Origin: Deltaproteobacteria bacterium HGW-Deltaproteobacteria-8
GTDB lineage: Bacteria > Desulfobacterota > Desulfovibrionia > Desulfovibrionales > Desulfovibrionaceae
NCBI GenBank assembly: GCA_002840405.1
Contig: PHAR01000003.1
Span: forward strand, 189,946 to 253,945
Direction: 5' to 3'
DNA: 64,000 nt
Below, piece by piece: positions 15,180 to 26,346 of the stretch (position 1 is its first letter; each line of letters begins with the position of its first letter). The position numbers were made by a program, and so were the translations under genes. The notes below the pieces were generated by a model. It did no database searches, was not told the origin of the DNA, and saw only the letters and a list, made by a program, of their open reading frames with translations.

Positions 15180-16544
15180 ATGACCGCAGGTTCAAAGCGA
15201 CAGGACATACTGGACTGGACCAATGCGTCGTGGGAGCGCCTCCCGGCCTCGGTTGACCTGCGCAAGCGCGCGGGCGAGATGGCCCAGAAACTCGCGGGCG
15301 AGATCACGGCAGGCAAGCTGCCGTTTCTCTCCACGCCCTTCATGGCCGCCCTGGAAAAGGACCTGGCCGGGCTGGAGAGCGGGTTCCTCGCAGGCTTCGA
15401 GCATATGCTGCTGCTGGGCATCGGCGGCTCGGCGCTCGGCGCGCGCGCCCTGCAAAAGGCCTTCGCCTCGGGCCAGGACCTGCCCGGCCATACGGGCAAG
15501 TCCCTCTGGATCATGGACAACGTGGACGCGGCCGTGCTTGAGGCCCATCTGGACCGCCTGCCGGCGGACAAGACCCTGGTCTACGTGGTCAGCAAGTCCG
15601 GCGACACCATCGAGACCATCGGCCAGTACTTCCTGGTCAAGGACTGGCTGAAGAAGGCCCTGCCGGGAGCCTGGAAAGACCACCTGCTGCTGAACACCGA
15701 CGAGCAGAAAGGCTACCTGCGCCAGGAGGCCGAGACCTTCGGCATCCGCACCCTGCCCGTGCCCGACAACCTGGGCGGCCGCTACTCGGCCATCTCCGCC
15801 GTGGGCCTGGTGCCCGCCGCGTTTTTGGGCATGGACTGGCGCGCGCTGGTCAAGGGCTTCCAGGCCGTGGCCGCGCCGCTCACCGACCCGAAACTCGACG
15901 CGGCCAGCCTGGCCGCGCACCCGGCGTTCGAGTTCGCGGTGTGGGGCAAGGCGCTCATGGACGAAGGCTTCTGCGAGCTCATCACCTTTTTCTACATCCC
16001 GGCCTGGTCCAGCTTCGCCGACTGGTTCGCGCAGCTCTGGGCCGAGAGCCTGGGCAAGGACGGCATGGGCTCCCAGCCCCTGCCCGCAGTGGGCGCAACC
16101 GACCAGCACAGCGTGAACCAGATGTTCCTGGACGGCCCGCGCAACAAGGCCTGCCTGTTCGTGGAGCGGGCCGGCGGGCCTGAGGGCCTGCCCTTCCCGG
16201 CGGACATGCCGCCCATCTTCGACTACCTGCAGGGCAAGCGCTTTGGCGTGCTTTTGCCCGCCGAGGCCCTGGGCACGCGCATGGCGCTGACCCAGAGCCA
16301 GGTGCCGCTGGTCGCCTTGCGCCTGGGGGCGGACGACGCCCAGGCCGCAGGCAAGATGATGGCCCTGCTCGGCGCGGCCACGCTCTTGACCGGCTGGCTC
16401 ATGGGCATCAACCCCGTGGACCAGCCCGCCGTGGAGCTGGGCAAGCGCCTGGCCAAGGCGCGCCTGGGCGCGGACGGCCTGGCCGAGGAGAAGGCCGCGC
16501 TGGCCGCCTTTGTCACCGGCGGACGCGACGAGCGGGGGTTTTAG
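15180..16544 (+). CDS. pgi: Glucose-6-phosphate isomerase
   Basis: Converts glucose-6-phosphate to fructose-6-phosphate in the cytoplasm; 454 residues, a compact bacterial length compared with about 550 in E. coli. Sugar-isomerase domains are evident: LLLGIGGSALGARALQKAF, VVSKSGDTIETIGQYFLVKDWL (phosphate-binding SKSG-T), PDNLGGRYSAISAVGLVPAA and the GATDQHSVNQMFLDGP segment. It supplies hexose phosphates that could feed the sugar nucleotide genes further right. The start has GGGGGCTCCC upstream. The antisense frame 15192-18092 is a GC-driven shadow. Confidence 0.96.
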   Translation: MTAGSKRQDILDWTNASWERLPASVDLRKRAGEMAQKLAGEITAGKLPFLSTPFMAALEKDLAGLESGFLAGFEHMLLLGIGGSALGARALQKAFASGQDLPGHTGKSLWIMDNVDAAVLEAHLDRLPADKTLVYVVSKSGDTIETIGQYFLVKDWLKKALPGAWKDHLLLNTDEQKGYLRQEAETFGIRTLPVPDNLGGRYSAISAVGLVPAAFLGMDWRALVKGFQAVAAPLTDPKLDAASLAAHPAFEFAVWGKALMDEGFCELITFFYIPAWSSFADWFAQLWAESLGKDGMGSQPLPAVGATDQHSVNQMFLDGPRNKACLFVERAGGPEGLPFPADMPPIFDYLQGKRFGVLLPAEALGTRMALTQSQVPLVALRLGADDAQAAGKMMALLGAATLLTGWLMGINPVDQPAVELGKRLAKARLGADGLAEEKAALAAFVTGGRDERGF

Positions 16545-16547
16545 CCC

Positions 16548-18071
16548 TTGGGCATCTACAAGAGCCTGATGGCGGCGAAAAAGCCGCTGCAGTTCGTGAA
16601 GGTCCTCACCTGGACCTTCCTCATCCTGATCCTGGTGACCAACCTGGGCCTGGCCGTGTTCTTGTCCAAGTACGCCGAGCGGGTGCTGCTGGAGAAGCAG
16701 AAGGAGTTCGGGCTGCTCTTGTCCGAGAACCTCTCGCACCAGATCTTCACGCGCTTCACCCTGCCCACCATCATCGGCTACGGGACCATCAGCCTGCGCA
16801 ACCCGGAGCAGTTCACGAGGCTGGACCAGGTGGTGCGCAGCACCATCCACAGCTTCCGCGTGCGCGAGGTGCGCATCTACGACCCGGAGTTCCGCATCTC
16901 CTACAGCACGGACCCGAACATGGTGAACCGCAGCGGCCTGGCCGGGGAGGGCGCCAAGCGTGCCTTGACCCTGGAGGAGCCGAGCTTTGAGCTGTTCAGC
17001 AAGATCAGCGGGGGCACGGCCCTGTTCCGGCTGCAGCTGCGGCCCGGCAGCGTGGTGCTGCGCGGGTTCGCGCCCCTGCGCATGGAGCGCAGCTTTGGCC
17101 CGGGTGTGAAAAACCCCATCATGGGCATCCTGGAGTTCAACCAGGACATCACCGATGACTACATGGCCGTGGTCAACTTCGAGCGCCTGGTCTATTCGAC
17201 CTCGCTCGTCACCAGCATGGTCTTGTTTTTCCTCATCATCAGCATCCTGCGCCGGGTCGACCGCATCAGCGCGGAGCGCCAGGCCGAGAAGGAGAAGCTG
17301 CTGCGCGAGCTGCACCAGCAGGAGAAGCTGGCGGGCATGGGCCGCATGGTGGCGGGCGTGGCGCACGAGATCAGAAACCCGCTCGGGATCATCCAGAGCA
17401 GCGCCGAGCTGGTGTTCAAGAAGGCCAAGGCCGACAACCACCCGCACACGCGCATCATCGAGGCCATCTACGACGAGAGCCGCCGGCTCTCGCGCACGGT
17501 GAACGACTTTCTGGACTACGCCCGGCCGCGCCAGCCGCGCATGGACGTGGTGGACCTCTGCCGCATCCTGGAGCAGGCCGCGGTGTTCCTGGAGCACGAG
17601 TGCGAGGCCAAGGGCATCCGCCTGGAGCGCGACTGCCCCCCCGGCACCCGCGTGCTGGGCGACAAGGACCTTTTGTACCGCGCGGTGTACAATGTGCTGG
17701 GCAACGCCATGCAGGCCATGGTCGAGGGCGGGCTGATCCAGGTCGCGGCGCGGCAGGCGGAGACCGGCGAGGAGGGCCTGCCGGAAGAGGGCGGCCCGTG
17801 GCTTGAACTCAGCGTGCGCGACTCCGGGCCGGGCTTCGACGTGACCAACCTGGACAAGATGAAGGACCCATTTTACAGCACCAAGGACACGGGCACGGGC
17901 CTGGGCCTGGCCATCGTGACCAGCATCGTGGAGAGCCACGGCGGTTTCGTGACCCTGAAAAATCACCCTGAAAGCGGGGCCGTGGTGTCGCTTTTGCTGC
18001 GCGCGGCAAAATCGGCCGAACCCGCCCCGGCGGAAGCTCCCGCCGCACCCACCGTCGCCCCCAGGGCCTAG
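16548..18071 (+). CDS. Two-component sensor histidine kinase, NtrB/ZraS-like
   Basis: Membrane histidine kinase of 507 residues, partner of the NtrC-type regulator encoded next. TM1 at 20-40, periplasmic sensor about 41-210 (no named domain recognised), TM2 at 215-235, then HisKA with phospho-acceptor His273 in GVAHEIRNPLGIIQSSAEL, and a HATPase with N box near NVLGNAMQAM, DSGPGF and GTGLGLAIV. The first start is TTG 16548, 4 nt after the pgi stop, with GGGGG upstream; ATG 16569 is an alternative. The C-terminal Pro/Ala-rich tail (AEPAPAEAPAAP) is unstructured. Confidence 0.92.
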   Translation: MGIYKSLMAAKKPLQFVKVLTWTFLILILVTNLGLAVFLSKYAERVLLEKQKEFGLLLSENLSHQIFTRFTLPTIIGYGTISLRNPEQFTRLDQVVRSTIHSFRVREVRIYDPEFRISYSTDPNMVNRSGLAGEGAKRALTLEEPSFELFSKISGGTALFRLQLRPGSVVLRGFAPLRMERSFGPGVKNPIMGILEFNQDITDDYMAVVNFERLVYSTSLVTSMVLFFLIISILRRVDRISAERQAEKEKLLRELHQQEKLAGMGRMVAGVAHEIRNPLGIIQSSAELVFKKAKADNHPHTRIIEAIYDESRRLSRTVNDFLDYARPRQPRMDVVDLCRILEQAAVFLEHECEAKGIRLERDCPPGTRVLGDKDLLYRAVYNVLGNAMQAMVEGGLIQVAARQAETGEEGLPEEGGPWLELSVRDSGPGFDVTNLDKMKDPFYSTKDTGTGLGLAIVTSIVESHGGFVTLKNHPESGAVVSLLLRAAKSAEPAPAEAPAAPTVAPRA

Positions 18072-18103
18072 CCCGGCGACCCAAAGCCTCACGGAGCATG
18101 CAC

Positions 18104-19477
18104 ATGCCAGGCAACATTCTCATTCTGGACGACGAGCTGAACTACCTGCTCGTGCTCGAAGCCATCCTGTCCGACGCGGGCTACAAGGTCACCACCCTGT
18201 CCGACCCGGAGATGGGCCTGGCCTTCCTCGAGGAATCCGAGGTCGACGTGGTGGTCACGGACATGAAGATGCCCAAGCTCACGGGCAAGGACGTGCTCGA
18301 CCACGTCAAGAAGCACTACTCCTACATCCCGGTGCTCATCATGACCGCGTTTGGCAGCATCGAGGCCGCGGTGGAGGCCATGCGCACCGGCGCGTTCGAC
18401 TACATCACCAAGCCCTTCAGTAACGAGGAGCTTCTGCTCTCCATCTCCAAGGCCATGCAGTTTGCCCGCGCCCAGCAGGAGAACAGGCACCTGCGCATGC
18501 AGATCCAGGAGCGCTTCGGCCCGGAGAACATTGTGGCCCGGGACAAGAGCATGCGCCACGTGCTGGACATGGTCCACCGCGCCGCGCCCAGCCGCAGCAC
18601 CGTGCTCGTCACCGGCGAATCCGGCACCGGCAAGGAGCTCATCGCCAAGGCCATCCACAACCAGTCCCCGCGCAAGGACGGCCCCTTCATCTCGGTCAAC
18701 TGCATGGCGCTCAATACCGGCGTGCTGGAGAGCGAGCTCTTCGGGCACGAGAAGGGCAGCTTCACCGGCGCGGTTTCGCGCAGGCGCGGCCGCTTCGAGC
18801 TGGCGGACAAGGGCACGCTGTTCCTGGACGAGATCGGCGAGCTGTCCCACGACATGCAGGTGAAGCTCTTGCGCGTGCTGCAGGAGCGCCAGTTCGAGCG
18901 CGTGGGCGGCACCGAGTCCGTGGAGGTCGACATCCGCATCGTGGCCGCCACCAACCGTGACCTGACCAAGGCCGTGGCCGACGGCCGCTTCCGCGAGGAT
19001 TTGTTCTACCGCCTGAACGTGGTCAGCATCGAGCTGCCGCCCCTGCGCGAGCGCCGCGAGGACATCCCGTTTCTGGCCGCGCACTTCCTGGACCGCTACG
19101 CGCGCGAGAACAAGCGCGAGTTCAAGGGCTTCACGCCCTCGGCCATGGACTACCTCTCGGCCTACGAGTGGCCGGGCAACGTGCGGCAGCTTGAGAACGT
19201 CATCGAGCGCTGCGTGGTCATGTGCACGGGCGACACCGTGAGCGCCGAGGACCTGCCGCCGGAGATCAAGGACGAGGAGTCGCAGTTCAAGAGCGCTGTG
19301 GACCTGCTGCCCACCAAGCTCGACCTCTCCGACACCCTGGAGAAGATCGAGGGCGCGGTGATCCGCCGGGCGCTGGTGCGGGCCGACTTCGTGCAGGTGA
19401 AGGCTGCGGAGCTCTTGAACGTCTCCAAGAGCCTGCTCCAGTACAAGCTGAAAAAATACAACATCTCGGCGAAGTAA
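18104..19477 (+). CDS. NtrC-family sigma-54-dependent response regulator
   Basis: DNA-binding activator for sigma-54 promoters. From ATG 18104 it has 457 residues (18098 is the other in-frame ATG, but GGAG lies only one base before it). Receiver with phospho-Asp in VVVTDMKMP (about 53), AAA+ domain with Walker A GESGTGKE, the sigma-54 contact loop GSFTGA (a Ser variant of GAFTGA), Walker B GTLFLDEIGE and a Fis-type helix-turn-helix at the C-terminus (VQVKAAELLNVSKSLLQYKLKKYNI). The adjacent kinase is its likely partner. I found no good -24/-12 site nearby, so the target genes are probably elsewhere. Confidence 0.95.
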   Translation: MPGNILILDDELNYLLVLEAILSDAGYKVTTLSDPEMGLAFLEESEVDVVVTDMKMPKLTGKDVLDHVKKHYSYIPVLIMTAFGSIEAAVEAMRTGAFDYITKPFSNEELLLSISKAMQFARAQQENRHLRMQIQERFGPENIVARDKSMRHVLDMVHRAAPSRSTVLVTGESGTGKELIAKAIHNQSPRKDGPFISVNCMALNTGVLESELFGHEKGSFTGAVSRRRGRFELADKGTLFLDEIGELSHDMQVKLLRVLQERQFERVGGTESVEVDIRIVAATNRDLTKAVADGRFREDLFYRLNVVSIELPPLRERREDIPFLAAHFLDRYARENKREFKGFTPSAMDYLSAYEWPGNVRQLENVIERCVVMCTGDTVSAEDLPPEIKDEESQFKSAVDLLPTKLDLSDTLEKIEGAVIRRALVRADFVQVKAAELLNVSKSLLQYKLKKYNISAK

Positions 19478-19602
19478 GGGCTGGCGCAGGGGAGGGTTTC
19501 CGCTCCCCGGTCTCCCTTTGCCACAGGGCGTTGTCTCTTTGGCCCCCTGCCGGCAAGAGCTGAACACCCCATCCTGTCGCGCGGGCGGCGAAGGAGAGGT
19601 TC

Positions 19603-20505
19603 ATGGAAACGGGCGCGAACAAGAAACGGTTCCTGATCTGCACAGCCTTGGGCCTTGTCGCCGTGGCGGCTGTGGTGTTCATGGTGCTGTCCGGGCCTGG
19701 TCTGCAGGGCGGAAAGTTCAAGGAGATCTTTGGCCGCAACGTGCAGATGGCCCGGCTGGTGGGAAGCATGCGCGTGAACCTGTACGCCGTGTCCGAGGCC
19801 GAGAAGAGCGCGGTGCTGGCCGATACCGACGAGGCCTCTGTGGAGTACGCCCGGCGTGCGCGGCTCTCCCTGGACGAGGTGGCCAAGGCCCTGGCCGAGT
19901 ACAAGACCCTGGTCAGCGCGCCCTCGCCCGATGCGGACCTCTTGAAGAGCTTCGAGCAGGCCTTCGGGGAGTTCCGCAAGGTCAACGAGGAGGTGCTGGC
20001 CCTGGCGGTGCAGAACACCAACCTGAAGGCCCAGGCCTTGTCCTTTGACCAGTCCTTTGCAGCCCTGGCGCGCATGGAGCAGGCGCTCTCCCCGTACCTG
20101 GAAGGCCAGCGCGGCAACCCCAAGGCGGGCCGGGTGGCTGCCCGCGCCCTGGCCGAGGCCCTGCGCATCCAGGCCTTGCAGGCCCCGCACATCATGGAGA
20201 AGGACGAGGCGCGCATGACCGGGATCGAGGCGCGCATGGGCGCGGCGGACACGCTGGTGCGGGCGTCGCTTGCGTACCTGTCGAGCCGCCTGGGCGGCAA
20301 GGACGTGGCGGACAAGGCGCTGGTGGCCTACAACGATTTTCAGAAGGTCACGGCGCAGGTGCTGCTGCTCTCGCGCGCGAACACCAACGTGCGCTCCCTG
20401 GTGCTGACGCTCGACCGCAAGACCAAGACGCTGGCCATGTGCGACGAGGCCCTGCGCGCCATGGAGGCCAAGGTCCACGAGGACATGGCCAAGGGGACGA
20501 GGTAG
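19603..20505 (+). CDS. Membrane-anchored four-helix-bundle sensor-like protein, no output domain
   Basis: A 300-residue protein with one N-terminal membrane anchor (10-31) and an all-helical periplasmic body. The segment SMRVNLYAVSEAEKSAVLADTDEASVEYARRARLSLDEV resembles the 4HB_MCP ligand-binding domain of chemoreceptors, and it appears about twice (a second helix pair starts near residue 155). There is no HAMP, MCP, kinase or GGDEF module, so it cannot signal alone. It lies 125 nt behind the NtrC-type gene and could be an accessory sensor for that kinase; that link is inferred from position only. Confidence 0.8.
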   Translation: METGANKKRFLICTALGLVAVAAVVFMVLSGPGLQGGKFKEIFGRNVQMARLVGSMRVNLYAVSEAEKSAVLADTDEASVEYARRARLSLDEVAKALAEYKTLVSAPSPDADLLKSFEQAFGEFRKVNEEVLALAVQNTNLKAQALSFDQSFAALARMEQALSPYLEGQRGNPKAGRVAARALAEALRIQALQAPHIMEKDEARMTGIEARMGAADTLVRASLAYLSSRLGGKDVADKALVAYNDFQKVTAQVLLLSRANTNVRSLVLTLDRKTKTLAMCDEALRAMEAKVHEDMAKGTR

Positions 20506-20512
20506 GGGGGCG

Positions 20513-20525
20513 GCCTCCGGCGGCC
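20513..20525 (+). repeat. Left 13-bp inverted repeat flanking the AT-rich gene
   Basis: GCCTCCGGCGGCC, exact reverse complement of 21118-21130. Part of a CG-rich run right after the stop of the preceding gene. Confidence 0.7.
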
Positions 20526-20546
20526 AAAGGGCCTGCGGCCCTTTGG
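20524..20546 (+). terminator. Hairpin after the four-helix-bundle gene
   Basis: CCAAAGGGCC-TGC-GGCCCTTTGG, a perfect 10-bp stem with a 3-base loop 19 nt after the stop codon. It is followed by AATCCCC rather than T residues, so termination would be weak, or it is an intergenic palindromic element. Confidence 0.55.
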
Positions 20547-20574
20547 AATCCCCATAAACGTTTTGTGGGGTACT

Positions 20575-21111
20575 ATGAACGCAGCTGAACACATCGTTGC
20601 ATGCTATCTTCAGAACTTCTGGAATTGTTTCGTCATGACAGATGTTAAGGTTCTAAAAGGGAACAACAGGCAATGCGACATTCTCGCTTGTCAGCTAGCG
20701 AAGCCAAAACGCCAGTATCATGTTGAAGTTTCTGTCACTCACCATAAACACTGGAATCCGAATGAGTTTGATGTTCACGGGATAATTGATGCAAAATTCT
20801 TAGGAATTGGCAAGGGTAGTAAGAGCTACAAAACTGCCATCGAAGATACGTATCGGTCTGTCGGGCTTGATCTGGAAAAAGTAATTCGCGTTTTTGTTTC
20901 ATGGATTTTGCCAGAGAAGGACATCGCGGATCGAATTTCTCGTGAGTATAAAATGAGCCACGGGATTAATGTTGAGCTCTGGAGTTTGAGAGATGAATTG
21001 TTGCCAGAAATTATTAAAGATATTTCTACCAGTAACTTTGATGATGAAATTCTTCGGACGCTATCATTGGTAAAGCAATTACAGAGGCAACGGCCTAACT
21101 GGTTGGATTAG
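20575..21111 (+). CDS. AT-rich horizontally acquired gene, unknown function (possible nuclease fold)
   Basis: The 178-residue product is not a family I recognise. The start is ATG 20575 (TTG 20563 is the alternative). By hand count individual lines run from about 32 to 43 percent G+C, in contrast to the GC-rich genes on both sides, and codon use is AT-ending, so it is clearly foreign. The region CDILACQ...YHVEVSVTHH puts an Asp (35) and a Glu (51) on successive predicted strands, loosely like a PD-(D/E)xK nuclease core, but the usual Lys two residues after Glu is Ser. No signal peptide or membrane segments. It lies between a hairpin and 13-bp inverted repeats. Confidence 0.7.
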   Translation: MNAAEHIVACYLQNFWNCFVMTDVKVLKGNNRQCDILACQLAKPKRQYHVEVSVTHHKHWNPNEFDVHGIIDAKFLGIGKGSKSYKTAIEDTYRSVGLDLEKVIRVFVSWILPEKDIADRISREYKMSHGINVELWSLRDELLPEIIKDISTSNFDDEILRTLSLVKQLQRQRPNWLD

Positions 21112-21117
21112 CCCCCC

Positions 21118-21130
21118 GGCCGCCGGAGGC
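21118..21130 (-). repeat. Right 13-bp inverted repeat flanking the AT-rich gene
   Basis: GGCCGCCGGAGGC, exact reverse complement of 20513-20525. It starts 6 bp after the stop of the AT-rich gene. Confidence 0.7.
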
Positions 21131-21178
21131 TGAAACCCACCTCTCGACCCCCGGCCCCCTTTCCCCTACACTCGCCTC

Positions 21179-24097
21179 ATGTCGCCCCATGACTCTTCCC
21201 CCATCGCCGAATACATAGCCGCGCTGCTGGCAAGCGAGCGCCTGGGCCGCCAGGTGTGCCACCACCGGCTGGTGCCGGGGCACGAGTCCGAGTTCGCCGA
21301 GCCCAGGCGTCCCTGGCCCAAGGCCATCCGCGAGGTGCTGGCAGCCAAGGGCATCGACGCGCTGTACAGCCACCAGGCGCTGGCGGCGGACCTCGTGCGC
21401 GCCGGGCGGCACGTTGTCGTGGCCACGCCCACGGCCAGCGGCAAGACCTTCGCGTTTCAACTGCCGATCATCGAGGCCGTGCTCGCGAATCCCGATTCCA
21501 GGGCGCTGGCCATCTACCCCCTGAAAGCCCTGGCCCAGGACCAGCTGCGCGGGTTCAATGAGCTGCTCGACAGCCTGCCCGAGGGCTTCCCCGCAGCCTC
21601 GCGCCCCACGGCCGCCATCTACGACGGCGACACCAAGCCCTCGCAGCGCGCCAAGATCCGCAAGAAGCCGCCCAACCTCATCCTGACCAACCCGGAGATG
21701 CTGCACCTGTCCATGCTGCCGTACCACGGCACCTGGGCCCAGGTCTTTGCCACGCTCACGCACATCGTCATCGACGAGGTCCACACCTACCGGGGCGTGC
21801 TGGGCGCGCACATGAGCCAGGTGCTGCGGCGCATGCAGCGCATCTGCCGCTACTACGGCTCGGATCCGGTGTTCGTGTTCTGCTCGGCCACGGTGGGCAA
21901 CCCGGCGGAGCTCTGCCAGCTCTTGACCGGCCTGGAGCCTGTGGCGGTGACCAAATCAGGCGCTCCGGCCGGGGCGCGGCACATGGTCTTCCTGAACCCC
22001 GAGGACTCGCCCGCCACGGCGGCGATACAACTGCTGCAGGCGGCGCTTTCGCGGGGCCTCAAGACCATCGTCTACGCCCAGAGCCGCCGCATGACCGAGC
22101 TCATCGCCATGTGGGCCAGCGAGAAGAGCGGGCAGTACCGCGACCAGATCAGCGCCTACCGCGCGGGCTTTTTGCCCGAGGAGCGCCGGGAGATCGAGGC
22201 GCGCATGGCCTCGGGTGATCTGCTCGCGGTCATCAGCACCAGCGCCCTGGAGCTGGGCATCGACATCGGGGGCTTGGACGTCTGCATCCTCGTGGGCTAC
22301 CCCGGCAGCGTCATGGCCACCTTGCAGCGCGGCGGCCGCGTGGGCCGGGCGCAGCAGGAGTCGGCCGTGGTGCTCGTGGCCCAGGAGGACGCGCTGGACC
22401 AGTATTTCATGCGCCACCCCGAGGACTTCTTTGCCCGCCCGGCCGAGCGCGCCGTGCTGAACCCGGAGAATCCGGTGATCCTGCCGCGCCACCTCATCTG
22501 CGCTGCGGCCGAGCTGCCGCTGGTGCAAAGCGAGCCGTATCTCAAGTCGCCTGGGGTGCGCGCCGCCCTGGACGGGCTCATCGCCACAGGCAAGCTCTAC
22601 TGGAGCGCGGACGGCCGCGACATCATCTCCCCGCGCAAGCGCCCCCAGCGCGACGTGGACCTGCGCGGCGCGGGCTCGCAGATCTCCATCGAGGACGCCG
22701 ACACCGGGGCCGTCATCGGGGCTGTGGACTCCCTGCGCGCCTGCCGCGAGACCCACCCCGGCGCGGTGTACCTGCACCGGGGCCGCACCTGGCTGGTGGA
22801 GTCCCTGGACATTCCCAGCGCCACGGCCAAGGTCCGCGCGGCCCGCGTGGGCTACTCCACCCGCGTGCGCTCGACCAAGGACACCGAGATCCTGGAGGTC
22901 TACGACCGGCGCGAGGTGCTGGGCACGCGCTTCACCCTGGCCCGGCTGCGCGTCACCGAGCAGGTCACCGGCTACGAGAAGCGCTCTACGCGCGGCGGCA
23001 ACCTGCTGGGCATGGTGCCGCTCGACATGCCGCCCAGCGTGTTCGAGACCGAAGGCCTGTGGCTCGACGTGCCCGACGACGCCCGGTGCAAGGCGGAAGA
23101 CCAGTACCTGCACTTCATGGGCGGCATCCACGCCGTGGAGCACGCGGCCATCGGCATCCTGCCGCTGCTCGTCATGACGGACAGAAACGACCTGGGCGGC
23201 ATCAGTACGCCCCTGCACCCGCAGACCGGCGGCGCGGCCGTGTTCATCTACGACGGCATGCCCGGCGGCGCGGGCTTGACCAGGGAAGCTTTCAGCCGCG
23301 CGGAAGAACTGCTCGACCGCACCCTCGCGGTCGTGCGCGACTGCCCCTGCGAGCTGGGCTGCCCCTCCTGCGTGCACTCGCCCAAGTGCGGGTCCGGCAA
23401 CCGGCCCATTGACAAGGCCGCAGCGCATTTCCTGCTGCGCGAGCTGACCGGCGGCGCGCCCGGCCCGGACATCGCGCCCGACATTTCCGAATCCTCAGCC
23501 CAGGAGGCCGCCATGCCCAAGGAAGGCGTATTGCCCGGAATAGACATGCCCGGCGTGCATATCCCCAAGCGTTTCGCCGTGGTGGACGTGGAGACGCGCC
23601 GCAGCGCCGCAGAGGTGGGCGGCTGGACCCGGCCCGACCTCATGGGCATCTCCATCGCCGTGCTCTACGATTCCGGCACGGACGAGTACGTGGACTACCA
23701 GGAGCACGAGATCGCATTGCTCGCCGAGCGCCTGAAATCCTTCGACCTTGTGGTGGGTTTCAACATCCTGCGGTTTGACTACGGCGTGCTGGCCGGGGTG
23801 CACCCCTTCGCCTACGCGAGCCTGCCCACGCTGGACATGCTGGCCCACGTGCACGAGCGCCTGGGCTATCGCCTGAAGCTGGACAACCTGGCCCAGGCCA
23901 CGCTGAACGTGGGCAAGAGCGCCGACGGGCTCATGGCCCTGCAATGGTGGAAGGAAGGGCGGCTGGACGAGATCGCCAAGTACTGCCGCCAGGACGTGGC
24001 CGTGACCCGCGACCTGTACCTCTACGGCCGGGAGAACAAGCACGTGCTGTTCTCCAACAAGGCCGGGCAAAAGGCGCGGCTGCCGGTGGGCTGGTAG
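21179..24097 (+). CDS. DEAD/DEAH helicase (MrfA/YprA-like, DUF1998) fused to a YprB-like exonuclease
   Basis: A 972-residue protein. Residues 1-400 are a superfamily 2 helicase: Walker A ATPTASGKT (82-90), DEVH box (199-202), motif III CSAT (235-238), and helicase C-terminal domain STSALELGIDIGG..QRGGRVGRA. Residues 410-740 are the DUF1998 region with the cysteine cluster CPCELGCPSC...C (722, 724, 728, 731, 737), probably zinc-binding. Residues 795-950 are a RNase H-like 3'-5' exonuclease: Asp803 and Glu805 in VVDVETRR, Asp867, and Tyr935/Asp939 in KYCRQDV (DEDDy type). In Bacillus subtilis mrfA and mrfB encode these activities separately for mitomycin C lesion repair; here they are fused. 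A 17-nt gap precedes the pentapeptide gene. Confidence 0.92.
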   Translation: MSPHDSSPIAEYIAALLASERLGRQVCHHRLVPGHESEFAEPRRPWPKAIREVLAAKGIDALYSHQALAADLVRAGRHVVVATPTASGKTFAFQLPIIEAVLANPDSRALAIYPLKALAQDQLRGFNELLDSLPEGFPAASRPTAAIYDGDTKPSQRAKIRKKPPNLILTNPEMLHLSMLPYHGTWAQVFATLTHIVIDEVHTYRGVLGAHMSQVLRRMQRICRYYGSDPVFVFCSATVGNPAELCQLLTGLEPVAVTKSGAPAGARHMVFLNPEDSPATAAIQLLQAALSRGLKTIVYAQSRRMTELIAMWASEKSGQYRDQISAYRAGFLPEERREIEARMASGDLLAVISTSALELGIDIGGLDVCILVGYPGSVMATLQRGGRVGRAQQESAVVLVAQEDALDQYFMRHPEDFFARPAERAVLNPENPVILPRHLICAAAELPLVQSEPYLKSPGVRAALDGLIATGKLYWSADGRDIISPRKRPQRDVDLRGAGSQISIEDADTGAVIGAVDSLRACRETHPGAVYLHRGRTWLVESLDIPSATAKVRAARVGYSTRVRSTKDTEILEVYDRREVLGTRFTLARLRVTEQVTGYEKRSTRGGNLLGMVPLDMPPSVFETEGLWLDVPDDARCKAEDQYLHFMGGIHAVEHAAIGILPLLVMTDRNDLGGISTPLHPQTGGAAVFIYDGMPGGAGLTREAFSRAEELLDRTLAVVRDCPCELGCPSCVHSPKCGSGNRPIDKAAAHFLLRELTGGAPGPDIAPDISESSAQEAAMPKEGVLPGIDMPGVHIPKRFAVVDVETRRSAAEVGGWTRPDLMGISIAVLYDSGTDEYVDYQEHEIALLAERLKSFDLVVGFNILRFDYGVLAGVHPFAYASLPTLDMLAHVHERLGYRLKLDNLAQATLNVGKSADGLMALQWWKEGRLDEIAKYCRQDVAVTRDLYLYGRENKHVLFSNKAGQKARLPVGW

Positions 24098-24114
24098 AAG
24101 GCAGGCATCTCATC

Positions 24115-24714
24115 ATGCAGGAAGCGACTCCACCAGACATCTCTGCCCTCAGCGGCGACCACGAGGACGAGACCTTCACGGGTGTTGAGGGCGACAACGC
24201 CGAGCTTCGCTCCGCCAGTTTCTCTCGGTGCGTCTTCCGCAACTCGTCCTTTCAGTTTGCCAGGCTTACCAACTGCACCTTTGAACACTGCGTTTTCGAT
24301 TGCTGCAACTTGTCGCTGCTGCATCTGCATGCAACAAAAATCATCCGCGCAAAGTTTCTCAACTCAAAACTGAGCGGCATCAACTGGAATAGCGCGAGCG
24401 GTTTCTTTTCCGCAACCTTCAACGGCTGCGTGATGGACAACACCTCATTTTCTTCTATGAACCTCTCGAAATACCTGTTCCATGCCTGCTCCTTTCGCGA
24501 CGCCTCCTTCATGGACACGAAACTTGCCCATGCGACATTCGAAGAGTGCGACCTCCGCAATTGCACCTTCCATAATACGGACCTCAGCCATGCGGACTTT
24601 TCCACCTCGTACAATTACTTCATAAGCGCGGACACGAACAAGCTGTACAAAGCAATATTTTCCTTGCCGGAGGCTGTCTCCCTTCTTTCCAATTTCAACA
24701 TCATCTTGAAGTAG
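24115..24714 (+). CDS. Pentapeptide-repeat protein
   Basis: A 199-residue cytoplasmic protein made almost wholly of pentapeptide repeats (A/C-x-F/L type): ELRSASFSRCVFRNSSFQFARLTNCTFEHCVFD and similar stretches, forming a right-handed quadrilateral beta-helix. ATG 24115 lies 17 nt behind the helicase-exonuclease gene, so the two are probably one transcript. Qnr/McbG-type members mimic DNA and protect gyrase, which would fit a DNA-lesion context, but most pentapeptide proteins have unknown roles. The gene is visibly less GC-rich than its neighbours and cysteine-rich (about 9 residues). No DNA-binding motif is seen. Confidence 0.88.
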   Translation: MQEATPPDISALSGDHEDETFTGVEGDNAELRSASFSRCVFRNSSFQFARLTNCTFEHCVFDCCNLSLLHLHATKIIRAKFLNSKLSGINWNSASGFFSATFNGCVMDNTSFSSMNLSKYLFHACSFRDASFMDTKLAHATFEECDLRNCTFHNTDLSHADFSTSYNYFISADTNKLYKAIFSLPEAVSLLSNFNIILK

Positions 24715-24918
24715 GGCCTGGCCGCGCATTTTGTCGCGTCCCCCCGGTTGGCGCGCCACTGCGAGGCGCACGCTGGCGTTCGCCCACGGCAAGGGCCGAT
24801 TTCATCTTGCGGAGTCGTTGACGGAGTTGTATTTCTTCCGGTCAATCGCCGAAACATGGCGAATTTCCCTTGCCCGCAGCCACGTTACGGCAGAGGCTAC
24901 AGCCCATAAGGACCTGCA

Positions 24919-25818
24919 ATGCAAGCACGACTGTTCAAGGCCGACGCCCTGCTCATGCTCACCGCGCTCATCTGGGGCGCGGCCTTTGTGGCCCAGCGCC
25001 TGGGCATGGAGCATGTGGGCCCGTTCACCTTCAACGGCGTGCGCTTCGCCCTGGGCGCCTTGGCCCTGCAGCCGCTCATCTGGCGCATGCAGCGCACCCG
25101 CGCCAACGAGGGCAGAAGCTCGGACTTGCACCAGGGCCTGGCTTCGACGCGGCTCATCCGCTACGGGCTTTTGGCCGGGTGCGTGCTCTTCGCGGGCGCG
25201 GCCCTGCAGCAGGTGGGCATTGTCTACACCACGGCGGGCAAGGCCGGGTTCATCACCGGCTTGTACGTGGTCATGGTGCCGCTGTTCGGGCTGTTTCTGC
25301 GCCAGCGGGCCGGGGCGGGCACGTGGATCGGGGCCATCGCCGCGGCGGTGGGCCTGTACCTGCTCTCGGTGAACGAGGACTTCTCCATCGCTTACGGGGA
25401 CGTGTTGGAGCTCATCGGCGCGGTGTTCTGGGCCGGGCATGTGCTGCTCATCGGGCGGCTCTCGCCGGGCATGGATGCCACCGACGCGGTGAAGCTGGCC
25501 TCTGCGCAGTTCGCTGTCTGCTCGCTGCTCAGCCTGGGCGTGGCCGTGGTCATGGAGCCCATTGCCCTGGCCGGAATCTCCGCCGCCGCCGTGCCCATTC
25601 TCTACGGCGGGCTCATGAGCGTGGGCGTGGCCTACACGCTGCAGGTGGTGGCCCAGCGCGACGCCAACCCGGCGCACGCGGCCATCATCCTGAGCCTGGA
25701 GGCGGTGTTTGCGGCCGTGGCCGGATACTTCGTGCTGGGCGAGGTGCTGGCCGTGCGCGCGCTCATCGGCTGCGGGCTGATGCTCGGCGGCATGCTCCTC
25801 TCGCAGCTCCGCCCCTAG
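24919..25818 (+). CDS. EamA/DMT-family metabolite exporter
   Basis: A 299-residue inner-membrane protein with ten predicted helices in two EamA halves, starting KADALLMLTALIWGAAFVAQRLGMEHVGPF, whose pattern matches drug/metabolite transporters such as RhtA/YdcZ-type exporters. The second half carries VLELIGAVFWAGHVLLIGRLSPG and ALVLSLEAVFAAVAGYFVLGEVL-like motifs of the fold. The substrate cannot be deduced. The start ATG 24919 lacks a strong Shine-Dalgarno (AAGGACC). The upstream 204 nt contain TTGACG...GTCAA at 24819-24846, a possible -35 or operator element. It converges with the small coiled-coil gene. Confidence 0.92.
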   Translation: MQARLFKADALLMLTALIWGAAFVAQRLGMEHVGPFTFNGVRFALGALALQPLIWRMQRTRANEGRSSDLHQGLASTRLIRYGLLAGCVLFAGAALQQVGIVYTTAGKAGFITGLYVVMVPLFGLFLRQRAGAGTWIGAIAAAVGLYLLSVNEDFSIAYGDVLELIGAVFWAGHVLLIGRLSPGMDATDAVKLASAQFAVCSLLSLGVAVVMEPIALAGISAAAVPILYGGLMSVGVAYTLQVVAQRDANPAHAAIILSLEAVFAAVAGYFVLGEVLAVRALIGCGLMLGGMLLSQLRP

Positions 25819-25834
25819 GGGCCGAAGCCCTGGC

Positions 25835-26143
25835 CTAGTAGAGCCCGGCGTTCTCCGGCCCGTCGATCTTGGCGCAGGTCTCGTCCATGTAGCGCACCAT
25901 GTCCTCGTAGACCTTTTCGGCCTTGGCCTTGATGGGGTGCCAGCCGTCGTCCGTGGCGGCCTCGGCGGCCTTGAGCTGGTCGCGCAGCTCGTCGCGGCGG
26001 GCCTTGAGGAGGAAGTACGTCTTCTCGAGCTCCGCCCTGGCGTGCTCGCTCTTCGGCTTGGGACGCGCCTTGAGCTTCTCCATGTTGGCGTCGAAGGTCT
26101 TGAGCCTCGTCTCCATCTCGTTCATGAACTGCTGCTTGACCAT
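25835..26143 (-). CDS. Small coiled-coil hypothetical protein
   Basis: A 102-residue protein, Met at 26143 (GGAGAGTGGCCC upstream). It is almost entirely helical with a charged heptad pattern (MEKLKARPKPKSEHARAELEKTYFLLKARRDELRDQLKAAEAAT) and ends in ENAGLY. No signal peptide, membrane segment or cysteine except one near the C-terminus. No family recognised. It is divergent from dapF and converges with the EamA gene. Confidence 0.75.
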   Translation of the reverse strand: MVKQQFMNEMETRLKTFDANMEKLKARPKPKSEHARAELEKTYFLLKARRDELRDQLKAAEAATDDGWHPIKAKAEKVYEDMVRYMDETCAKIDGPENAGLY

Positions 26144-26346
26144 GGGCCACTCTCCGGTGGTTGCGGGGTATGTGCGGGGCGCATCGAGAATATTTAGATG
26201 GCCAGAACATATAACAATCTGGCGATGCTGTCCACGCATCCTGGAAAAATTGCGGCTGCGCGGGCGCCAATGGAGCCTGGGGCCTTGACGAAGGGGGGCT
26301 CAATGCTTTCTATTCCAGGCACCACACCAGCGGAGGACCCCCCAGG

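Follow-up and report, generated by a model that had tools for sequence, protein, structure and literature searches.

Mitomycin C lesions in Bacillus subtilis are handled jointly by MrfA (YprA), a 3′–5′ helicase, and MrfB (YprB), a 3′–5′ exonuclease (PMC12458937, PMC11194089, PMC12345164). Modeling of the MrfA–MrfB pair places the 3′ end of the DNA near the MrfB active site, and its authors note that the complex model and its dependence on ATP or DNA need testing (PMC11194089). Complementation is reported to depend on alleles that are close relatives (PMC12458937). Here we analyze a protein in which a helicase of this family and an exonuclease are joined in one chain. It is encoded at positions 21179–24097 (plus strand) of a 64,000-nucleotide stretch, the window, from contig PHAR01000003.1 of Deltaproteobacteria bacterium HGW-Deltaproteobacteria-8 (phylum Desulfobacterota). 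The fused protein is probably a DNA-repair enzyme, and its exonuclease appears to come from a lineage other than that of MrfB.

The open reading frame (ORF) starts with ATG, has no internal stop codons, and encodes 972 residues. The helicase part spans residues 1–760 and is followed by a linker (about 759–798) and the exonuclease (799–972); Table 1 gives the features and their coordinates. Motifs, zinc domain, and fold all place the helicase part in the YprA/MrfA (DUF1998, MrfA Zn-binding (MZB)) family. By sequence, the nearest solved chain is B. subtilis YprA/MrfA (6znp; 1.9e-148 over residues 30–734), in agreement with the original prediction, made from the window sequence, of an MrfA-like helicase over the first 750 or so residues. 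The full-chain AlphaFold2 model has a mean predicted local distance difference test score (pLDDT) of 88.7 and a predicted template modeling score (pTM) of 0.86. A Foldseek search with the predicted structure returns 6znp at 2.5e-67 over 771 columns, and its top four rows are 6znp (two chains), 6znq, and 6zns, with template modeling scores by target length of 0.76–0.83. Twelve helicase motif residues (T83, T85, G88, K89, D199, E200, H202, T238, Q383, R384, R387, and R390) and the five cysteines of the MZB region (722, 724, 728, 731, and 737, extending to base 23389) are unchanged in all 64 other full-length fusions. Other motif positions vary, with V201 replaced in 11 of these proteins, S236 in 2, and A237 in 1. 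In the window genome, one such helicase is full-length, and the three further matches are partial (24–36% identity).

Table 1. Features of the fusion gene and its neighbors, in window coordinates
Feature	Coordinates	Strand	Basis and remarks
Fusion gene, MrfA/YprA-type superfamily 2 (SF2) helicase + C-terminal DEDDy exonuclease	21179..24097	+	972 residues; ORF, Pfam, structure
RecA1 / DEAD domain, residues 64–242	21368..21904	+	Pfam PF00270, 4.2e-28; TPTASGKT at 83, DEVH at 199
RecA2 / Helicase_C, residues 285–391	22031..22351	+	Pfam PF00271, 3.8e-14; QRGGRVGR at 383
Winged-helix domain, residues 428–498	22460..22672	+	Pfam PF22982 WHD_HRQ1, 4.1e-8
MZB / DUF1998 (MrfA Zn-binding), residues 653–732	23135..23374	+	Pfam PF09369, 2.1e-22
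Flexible linker, residues 759–798	23453..23572	+	pLDDT <50 at 765–768 and 770–793
DEDDy exonuclease domain (predicted), residues 799–972	23573..24094	+	D803, E805, D867, Y935, D939
Pentapeptide-repeat protein	24115..24714	+	Pfam; Met codon at 24115, 17 nt downstream of fusion
NtrC-type sigma-54 response regulator	18098..19477	+	Pfam; two ORFs between it and fusion
Histidine kinase, companion of response regulator	16548..18071	+	Pfam HisKA, HATPase_c

The five catalytic residues of the exonuclease, Asp803, Glu805, Asp867, Tyr935, and Asp939, were found, like the five cysteines, exactly where they had been predicted. All five are unchanged in the 64 other full-length fusions. Across the 83 fused genes fetched, Glu805, Asp867, and Tyr935 are kept without exception, and Asp803 and Asp939 are each kept in 82. 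The signature D-x-E-T-x3-A-x2-V-G-G-W is invariant in an 80-row alignment of fused domains. In a model of the exonuclease alone (pLDDT 92.9, pTM 0.89), Y935 and D939 (Tyr-x3-Asp) both lie in a long last helix (929–953), as in DEDDy enzymes. Judged by these residues, the fused domain is, as had been proposed, a DEDD exonuclease with its catalytic set intact, and of the DEDDy rather than the His type. The first rows of a Foldseek search with this model are T7 DNA polymerase, and the 50 matches listed by VIA are all family B DNA polymerases, with Z scores of 14.1–15.2 over 149–169 residues. These results suggest a fold close to the DEDDy proofreading domains of polymerases. Neither the 50 Foldseek rows nor the 50 VIA rows listed include MrfB, which does not constitute evidence for a different fold. 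Because DEDDy enzymes include the RNases NrnC and RNase D (PMC11194089), the exonuclease could act on RNA or on RNA–DNA hybrids, making the protein an R-loop or RNA-processing enzyme. However, the nearest folds listed are DNA polymerase proofreading domains and the helicase part has a DNA helicase as its nearest match, and we regard an RNA substrate as improbable. Relatives of the domain on phages and plasmids are weak: 11 phage records at 24–30% identity, of which 9 carry a polymerase or polymerase-exonuclease annotation, and one cyanobacterial plasmid at 29%.

The exonuclease had been called MrfB-like, and the surroundings of related helicases bear on this assignment. The 119 helicase loci fetched, picked by hand rather than at random, comprise 83 fused and 36 unfused ones, two of the latter (L092 and L094) being artifacts. 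An MrfB-like gene lies nearby, mostly downstream, in 23 of the 36 unfused loci, and none was found in the 5 kb flanks fetched for the 83 fused ones. All but one of these 23 separate MrfB proteins show His-Asn-x-x-Asp (DEDDh), the remaining one being a 194-residue piece. Of the MrfB features, the fused domain has the DEDD carboxylates (D803, E805, D867, and D939) but Tyr935 in place of the fifth residue, His. A profile of 16 separate MrfB proteins from the phylum finds the B. subtilis MrfB structure 8UN9 at 4.2e-52 and matches tetratricopeptide repeat (TPR) chains at its C-terminal part (304–414), whereas a profile of the fused domain finds no MrfB chain in the PDB at E ≤ 1, 8UN9 included; its best match is T7 DNA polymerase (0.028). 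The fused protein ends with the exonuclease and has no TPR match in Pfam. Five separate MrfB proteins were scanned, of which three match TPR models at E ≤ 0.1, two over a cutoff. The same five score 112–134 bits against RNase_H_2 (PF13482, cutoff 22 bits), as compared to 23.8 bits for the window protein (residues 844–947, 4.9e-5), barely above the cutoff, and 20.5 bits for the fused protein of locus L127.

Phylogenies of the two halves point in the same direction. A tree of 71 exonuclease cores resolves into three groups, namely the fused type (31 rows), MrfB (21), and a standalone DEDDy type (19), with supports of 100/99, 100/98, and 97/90. The branches that lead to the fused group and to MrfB are longer than three changes per column, so that the grouping is trustworthy and the deep order is not. 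The fused rows comprise 28 of the 83 fused genes plus the window, L265, and L266; the MrfB rows, 21 of the 23; and the standalone rows, 19 proteins with L286 left out, 3 of them entered whole, the start of the core not having been found by motif. In the standalone group, 18 of 19 proteins show Tyr-Asn-x-x-Asp. The helicase tree (120 rows, L099 left out; a quick search with no bootstrap) groups B. subtilis MrfA with 26 rows (Shimodaira–Hasegawa-like approximate likelihood ratio test (SH-aLRT) 100) and places it among the helicases that have a separate MrfB. Across a branch with SH-aLRT 99 from B. subtilis MrfA stand 91 rows, every fused row among them, placing the fused helicase in this tree outside MrfA proper, the clade of B. 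subtilis MrfA. Because the phylum's own MrfB genes are DEDDh and adjoin a different MrfA clade, and because the fused domain forms its own group, the MrfB-like label appears wrong; calling the domain MrfB is an easy annotation error. The prediction of a helicase and an intact DEDD exonuclease in one chain thus stands, and the identification of that exonuclease as MrfB is not supported.

Alternatively, the fused domain could be a true MrfB, derived from an ancestral mrfA–mrfB operon that fused and then lost the TPR and exchanged its catalytic His for Tyr. In Pfam searches at E ≤ 1 with 43 fused domains, RNase_H_2, the family that MrfB matches, was hit by all 43 (best 2.4e-12), beside DNA_pol_B_exo2 (42) and DNA_pol_A_exo1 (41). 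A profile–profile alignment of the fused domain with MrfB has a probability of 77 and an E value of 2.1e-5, a remote likeness only, by which the two are distant kin. Bell et al. name YprA helicases "fused to MrfB/YprB homologs" (PMC12458937), and Manthei et al. describe MrfB as built like DEDDy enzymes although it is DEDDh (PMC11194089). Set against these points are the failure of the fused-domain profile to reach MrfB in the PDB, the three separate exonuclease groups (on very long branches), the separate clades of the helicase partners, and the lack of a TPR match. We consider descent from MrfB unlikely, though far from negligible.

Several further proteins of the phylum were noted. A standalone DEDDy-type RNase_H_2 protein of about 250–370 residues (L267–L285), with an N-terminus that looks like a helix-hairpin-helix (a label from sequence), occurs in many genomes, with no YprA helicase close to it in the stretches fetched. 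Another helicase–exonuclease chain of the phylum is a 1131-residue ORF (L286:2020–5415) in which RNase_H_2 precedes AAA_11/AAA_12 helicase domains. In two loci (L103:2528–4015 and L105:2–397), the MrfB-like gene lies upstream of the helicase, not downstream, and in the tree both helicases are set apart from the remaining ones with an MrfB neighbor.

Within its clade, the fusion is the normal condition, and most sampled genomes of the phylum are without that clade. In an even sample of 297 genomes of the phylum, the exonuclease domain is found in 86 (75 of the 245 of good quality) and not in the other 211. In 80 of the 86, the open frame that contains it has 940 residues or more. Of the remaining six, G348 and G393 have the two ends of the gene on separate contigs, with the cut inside the helicase, and G197 has a frame break there; in all three, the exonuclease shares one 581–711-residue frame with the second helicase half. 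G432 has helicase and exonuclease on different contigs, G264 is a 46-residue piece at a contig start, and G370 carries a standalone copy (L265). At the level of the order, 37 of 39 fetched loci, likewise hand-picked, carry the fusion in one ORF, and the other two are interrupted, L092 by a run of N in the linker and L094 by a contig end; 140 of 150 genomes gave some match at E ≤ 0.001, with other helicases included. A search of a separate collection, genome_contigs, found 364 relatives, of which 80 were kept; 78 of these are fused, and in L211 and L248 the two parts are encoded in different frames. One of the 80 is labeled Candidatus Goldiibacteriota (L183), and NCBI labels put 29 of the 80 in Myxococcota, which we take to be a naming matter of "Deltaproteobacteria bacterium" records. 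An assembly or frameshift artifact was considered and rejected, as the single frame recurs in other species of the genus, family, order, and phylum. A view of the fusion as rare is therefore not upheld. The architecture is common and already mentioned in print, and the C-terminal segment is no unrelated fold but a DEDD exonuclease.

A single origin of the fusion is likely but not proven; the deep fused row L127 is not firmly placed. Six unfused helicases with no MrfB in their flanks (L125, L129, L143, L144, L146, and L149) group beside the fused rows. A profile of the fused-type exonuclease, the one that finds 86 of the 297 phylum genomes, gave no match at E ≤ 0.001 in the genomes of these six or in one more. 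The six may represent the pre-fusion state or a loss.

These observations lead us to propose that the protein is a single-chain DNA-repair helicase–exonuclease, which we hold to be likely. Residues 1–760 would form an SF2 helicase that translocates 3′ to 5′ on single-stranded DNA, as described for MrfA. The C-terminal domain would be a DEDDy 3′–5′ exonuclease, presumably of the two-metal kind, with a fold related to polymerase proofreading domains. The linker between them, 40 residues in the window protein and 27–147 (median 34) across 65 full-length fusions, is rich in Pro and Glu; because it is largely disordered and variable in length as well, it suggests a flexible tether. Starting from a nick or gap, the helicase would draw the tracking strand through its canopy, and the tethered exonuclease would digest the 3′ tail emerging behind it, one molecule thereby both unwinding and removing the damaged stretch. 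We infer this division of labor, including the polarity, the DNA substrate, the coupling of the two activities, and the role in lesion repair, from the polarity of MrfA and MrfB and from the modeled position of the 3′ end near the MrfB site. The fusion would then do the job of B. subtilis MrfA plus MrfB with an exonuclease of another lineage.

Several observations weigh against this proposal. The relative placement of helicase and exonuclease is not assessable from the model, which comes with no predicted aligned error. No activity or phenotype is reported for any fused member in the literature consulted. The six sister helicases exist without the exonuclease domain, and two members have the exonuclease alone (L265 and L266), so the exonuclease can persist or be duplicated on its own. 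Both standalone copies nest inside the fused group in the exonuclease tree, a position that fits a later helicase loss or a duplication better than a free form as the ancestor. Fused genomes also often have a separate DEDD exonuclease at hand: 17 of 29 fused genomes have another RNase_H_2 match of at least 87 bits elsewhere. Fifteen of these 17 proteins were fetched and all are of the standalone type, with genome G249 also having the helicase-linked protein of L286. For such counts, PF13482 at E ≤ 1e-6 was used only for strong separate matches, as it detects the fused domain poorly and misses it in several genomes shown to have it (e.g., G192 and G306). The window genome, by contrast, speaks for the proposal, its one RNase_H_2 match being the fused domain; among 20 relatives searched together with it, three (G442, G002, and G004) have a further strong match. 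Finally, the uniform RNase_H_2 matches of the fused domains make a very diverged MrfB conceivable.

The two standalone copies lie in different genomes. The copy in G370 (L265:4968–5627) directly follows an HD-domain gene and has Lon-like and Clp-type genes nearby; the only helicase match of this genome is a weak one to TIGR03817 (3.4e-4). The other (L266:4986–5531) is a second exonuclease copy in G249, a genome that also carries the fusion.

The genes around the fusion in the window include pgi, a kinase–regulator pair, and an EamA transporter. The counts of upstream neighbors that follow are lower bounds, with loci cut by contig ends. An NtrC-type regulator (at least 40% identity) lies upstream on the same strand in 20 of the 39 order-level loci, in 9 of the 20 with a gap below 30 nt or an overlap; the 239-nt overlap in L094 probably stems from the choice of the first start codon. 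The histidine kinase is present in 16 of those 20 loci and pgi in 7. The kinase and NtrC-type regulator upstream of the fusion (window 16548–19477; L064–L102) form a conserved neighborhood in the order, possibly an operon. From gene order, the pair is possibly DVU3220/DVU3221 of Desulfovibrio vulgaris. Two papers describe DVU3220 as a probable nitrogen regulator that targets the ammonium transport operon (PMC3333781, PMC4641369). The pentapeptide-repeat ORF was correctly placed 17 nt downstream by the original prediction. Its suggested role as a partner was not borne out, as it stands beside the helicase in 1 of the 119 fetched loci (L064, same genus) and not in L065 or L066 of that genus (BLASTP 1e-8, 5 kb flanks, some loci at contig ends). 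A 182-residue ORF just upstream of the fusion (20563–21111) has no Pfam match; considered as a partner, it was found in 0 of the 119 loci.

The neighborhood also bears on an anti-phage defense role, as in other YprA helicase–nuclease fusions (Druantia, ARMADA). Such fusions are typical of several defense clades (PMC12458937), and PADLOC profiles of 70 families match the helicase part. However, the 25 PADLOC matches listed all fall within residues 49–756, which is the helicase part, and the gene recurs across genus, family, and order. No defense partner gene (methylase, PLD/Vsr nuclease) was found among eight neighbors scanned with Pfam (15180–26239) and two scanned with PADLOC, not every ORF being scanned. 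In Bell et al., helicases with a fused MrfB homolog belong to the repair branch (PMC12458937), and we judge a defense function to be very improbable.

Several described proteins resemble the fusion in part. Its best NCBIfam match is TIGR03817 (DECH_helic), at 751.6 bits over residues 44–757 and below the cutoff of 874.1; this 742-position model ends with the helicase. Mycobacterium smegmatis SftH may belong to the same group. WRN joins a RecQ helicase and a DEDDy exonuclease in one chain, with the exonuclease N-terminal and the helicase from another family than that of the fusion. B. subtilis MrfA (6znp) shares the SF2, winged-helix, OB/connector, and MZB domains over residues 30–734 (OB and connector named after PMC12458937), but it ends after the zinc domain, has MrfB in its own gene, and belongs to a separate clade from the fused helicase. 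MrfB (8UN9) shares the DEDD 3′–5′ exonuclease core with its long last helix; it matches RNase_H_2 in Pfam, to which the match of the fused domain is borderline. It differs in being DEDDh (His258), in its C-terminal TPR, and in having its own gene (PMC11194089), whereas the fused domain is DEDDy, with no TPR match and no profile link to 8UN9 at E ≤ 1. Staphylococcus aureus DinG (SaDinG) combines a DEDD exonuclease with an SF2 helicase in one chain, is linked to mitomycin C sensitivity, and has been likened to a natural MrfA–MrfB fusion (PMC12345164). Unlike the present fusion, it belongs to the DinG helicase family, is 5′–3′, and carries an N-terminal exonuclease of the DEDDh kind.

The fused YprA helicases of Bell et al. 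2025 (PMC12458937), repair-branch members with an exonuclease in the same chain, are very probably the same proteins as those analyzed here. The available text of that paper does not set the DEDDy kind apart from MrfB and gives no signature or distribution, and no paper separating the two was found in a search with thin coverage of subscription journals. The architecture is thus already known in print, and the distinction from MrfB, the signature, and the distribution seem new. To judge from the sequences, a MrfAB-like machine may well have been built twice, once from two genes (MrfA and a DEDDh-TPR MrfB) and independently as one chain from another YprA clade and a DEDDy exonuclease of the proofreading kind, a reading that we favor with some reserve. 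If true, the selected feature would be the coupling of a 3′–5′ translocase to a 3′–5′ exonuclease, not the particular nuclease. In the single-chain version the stoichiometry is fixed, and a single protein thus allows both unwinding and digestion to be measured. With an exonuclease that seems not to be MrfB, comparison of the fusion with MrfA plus MrfB would show which features of the pairing matter.

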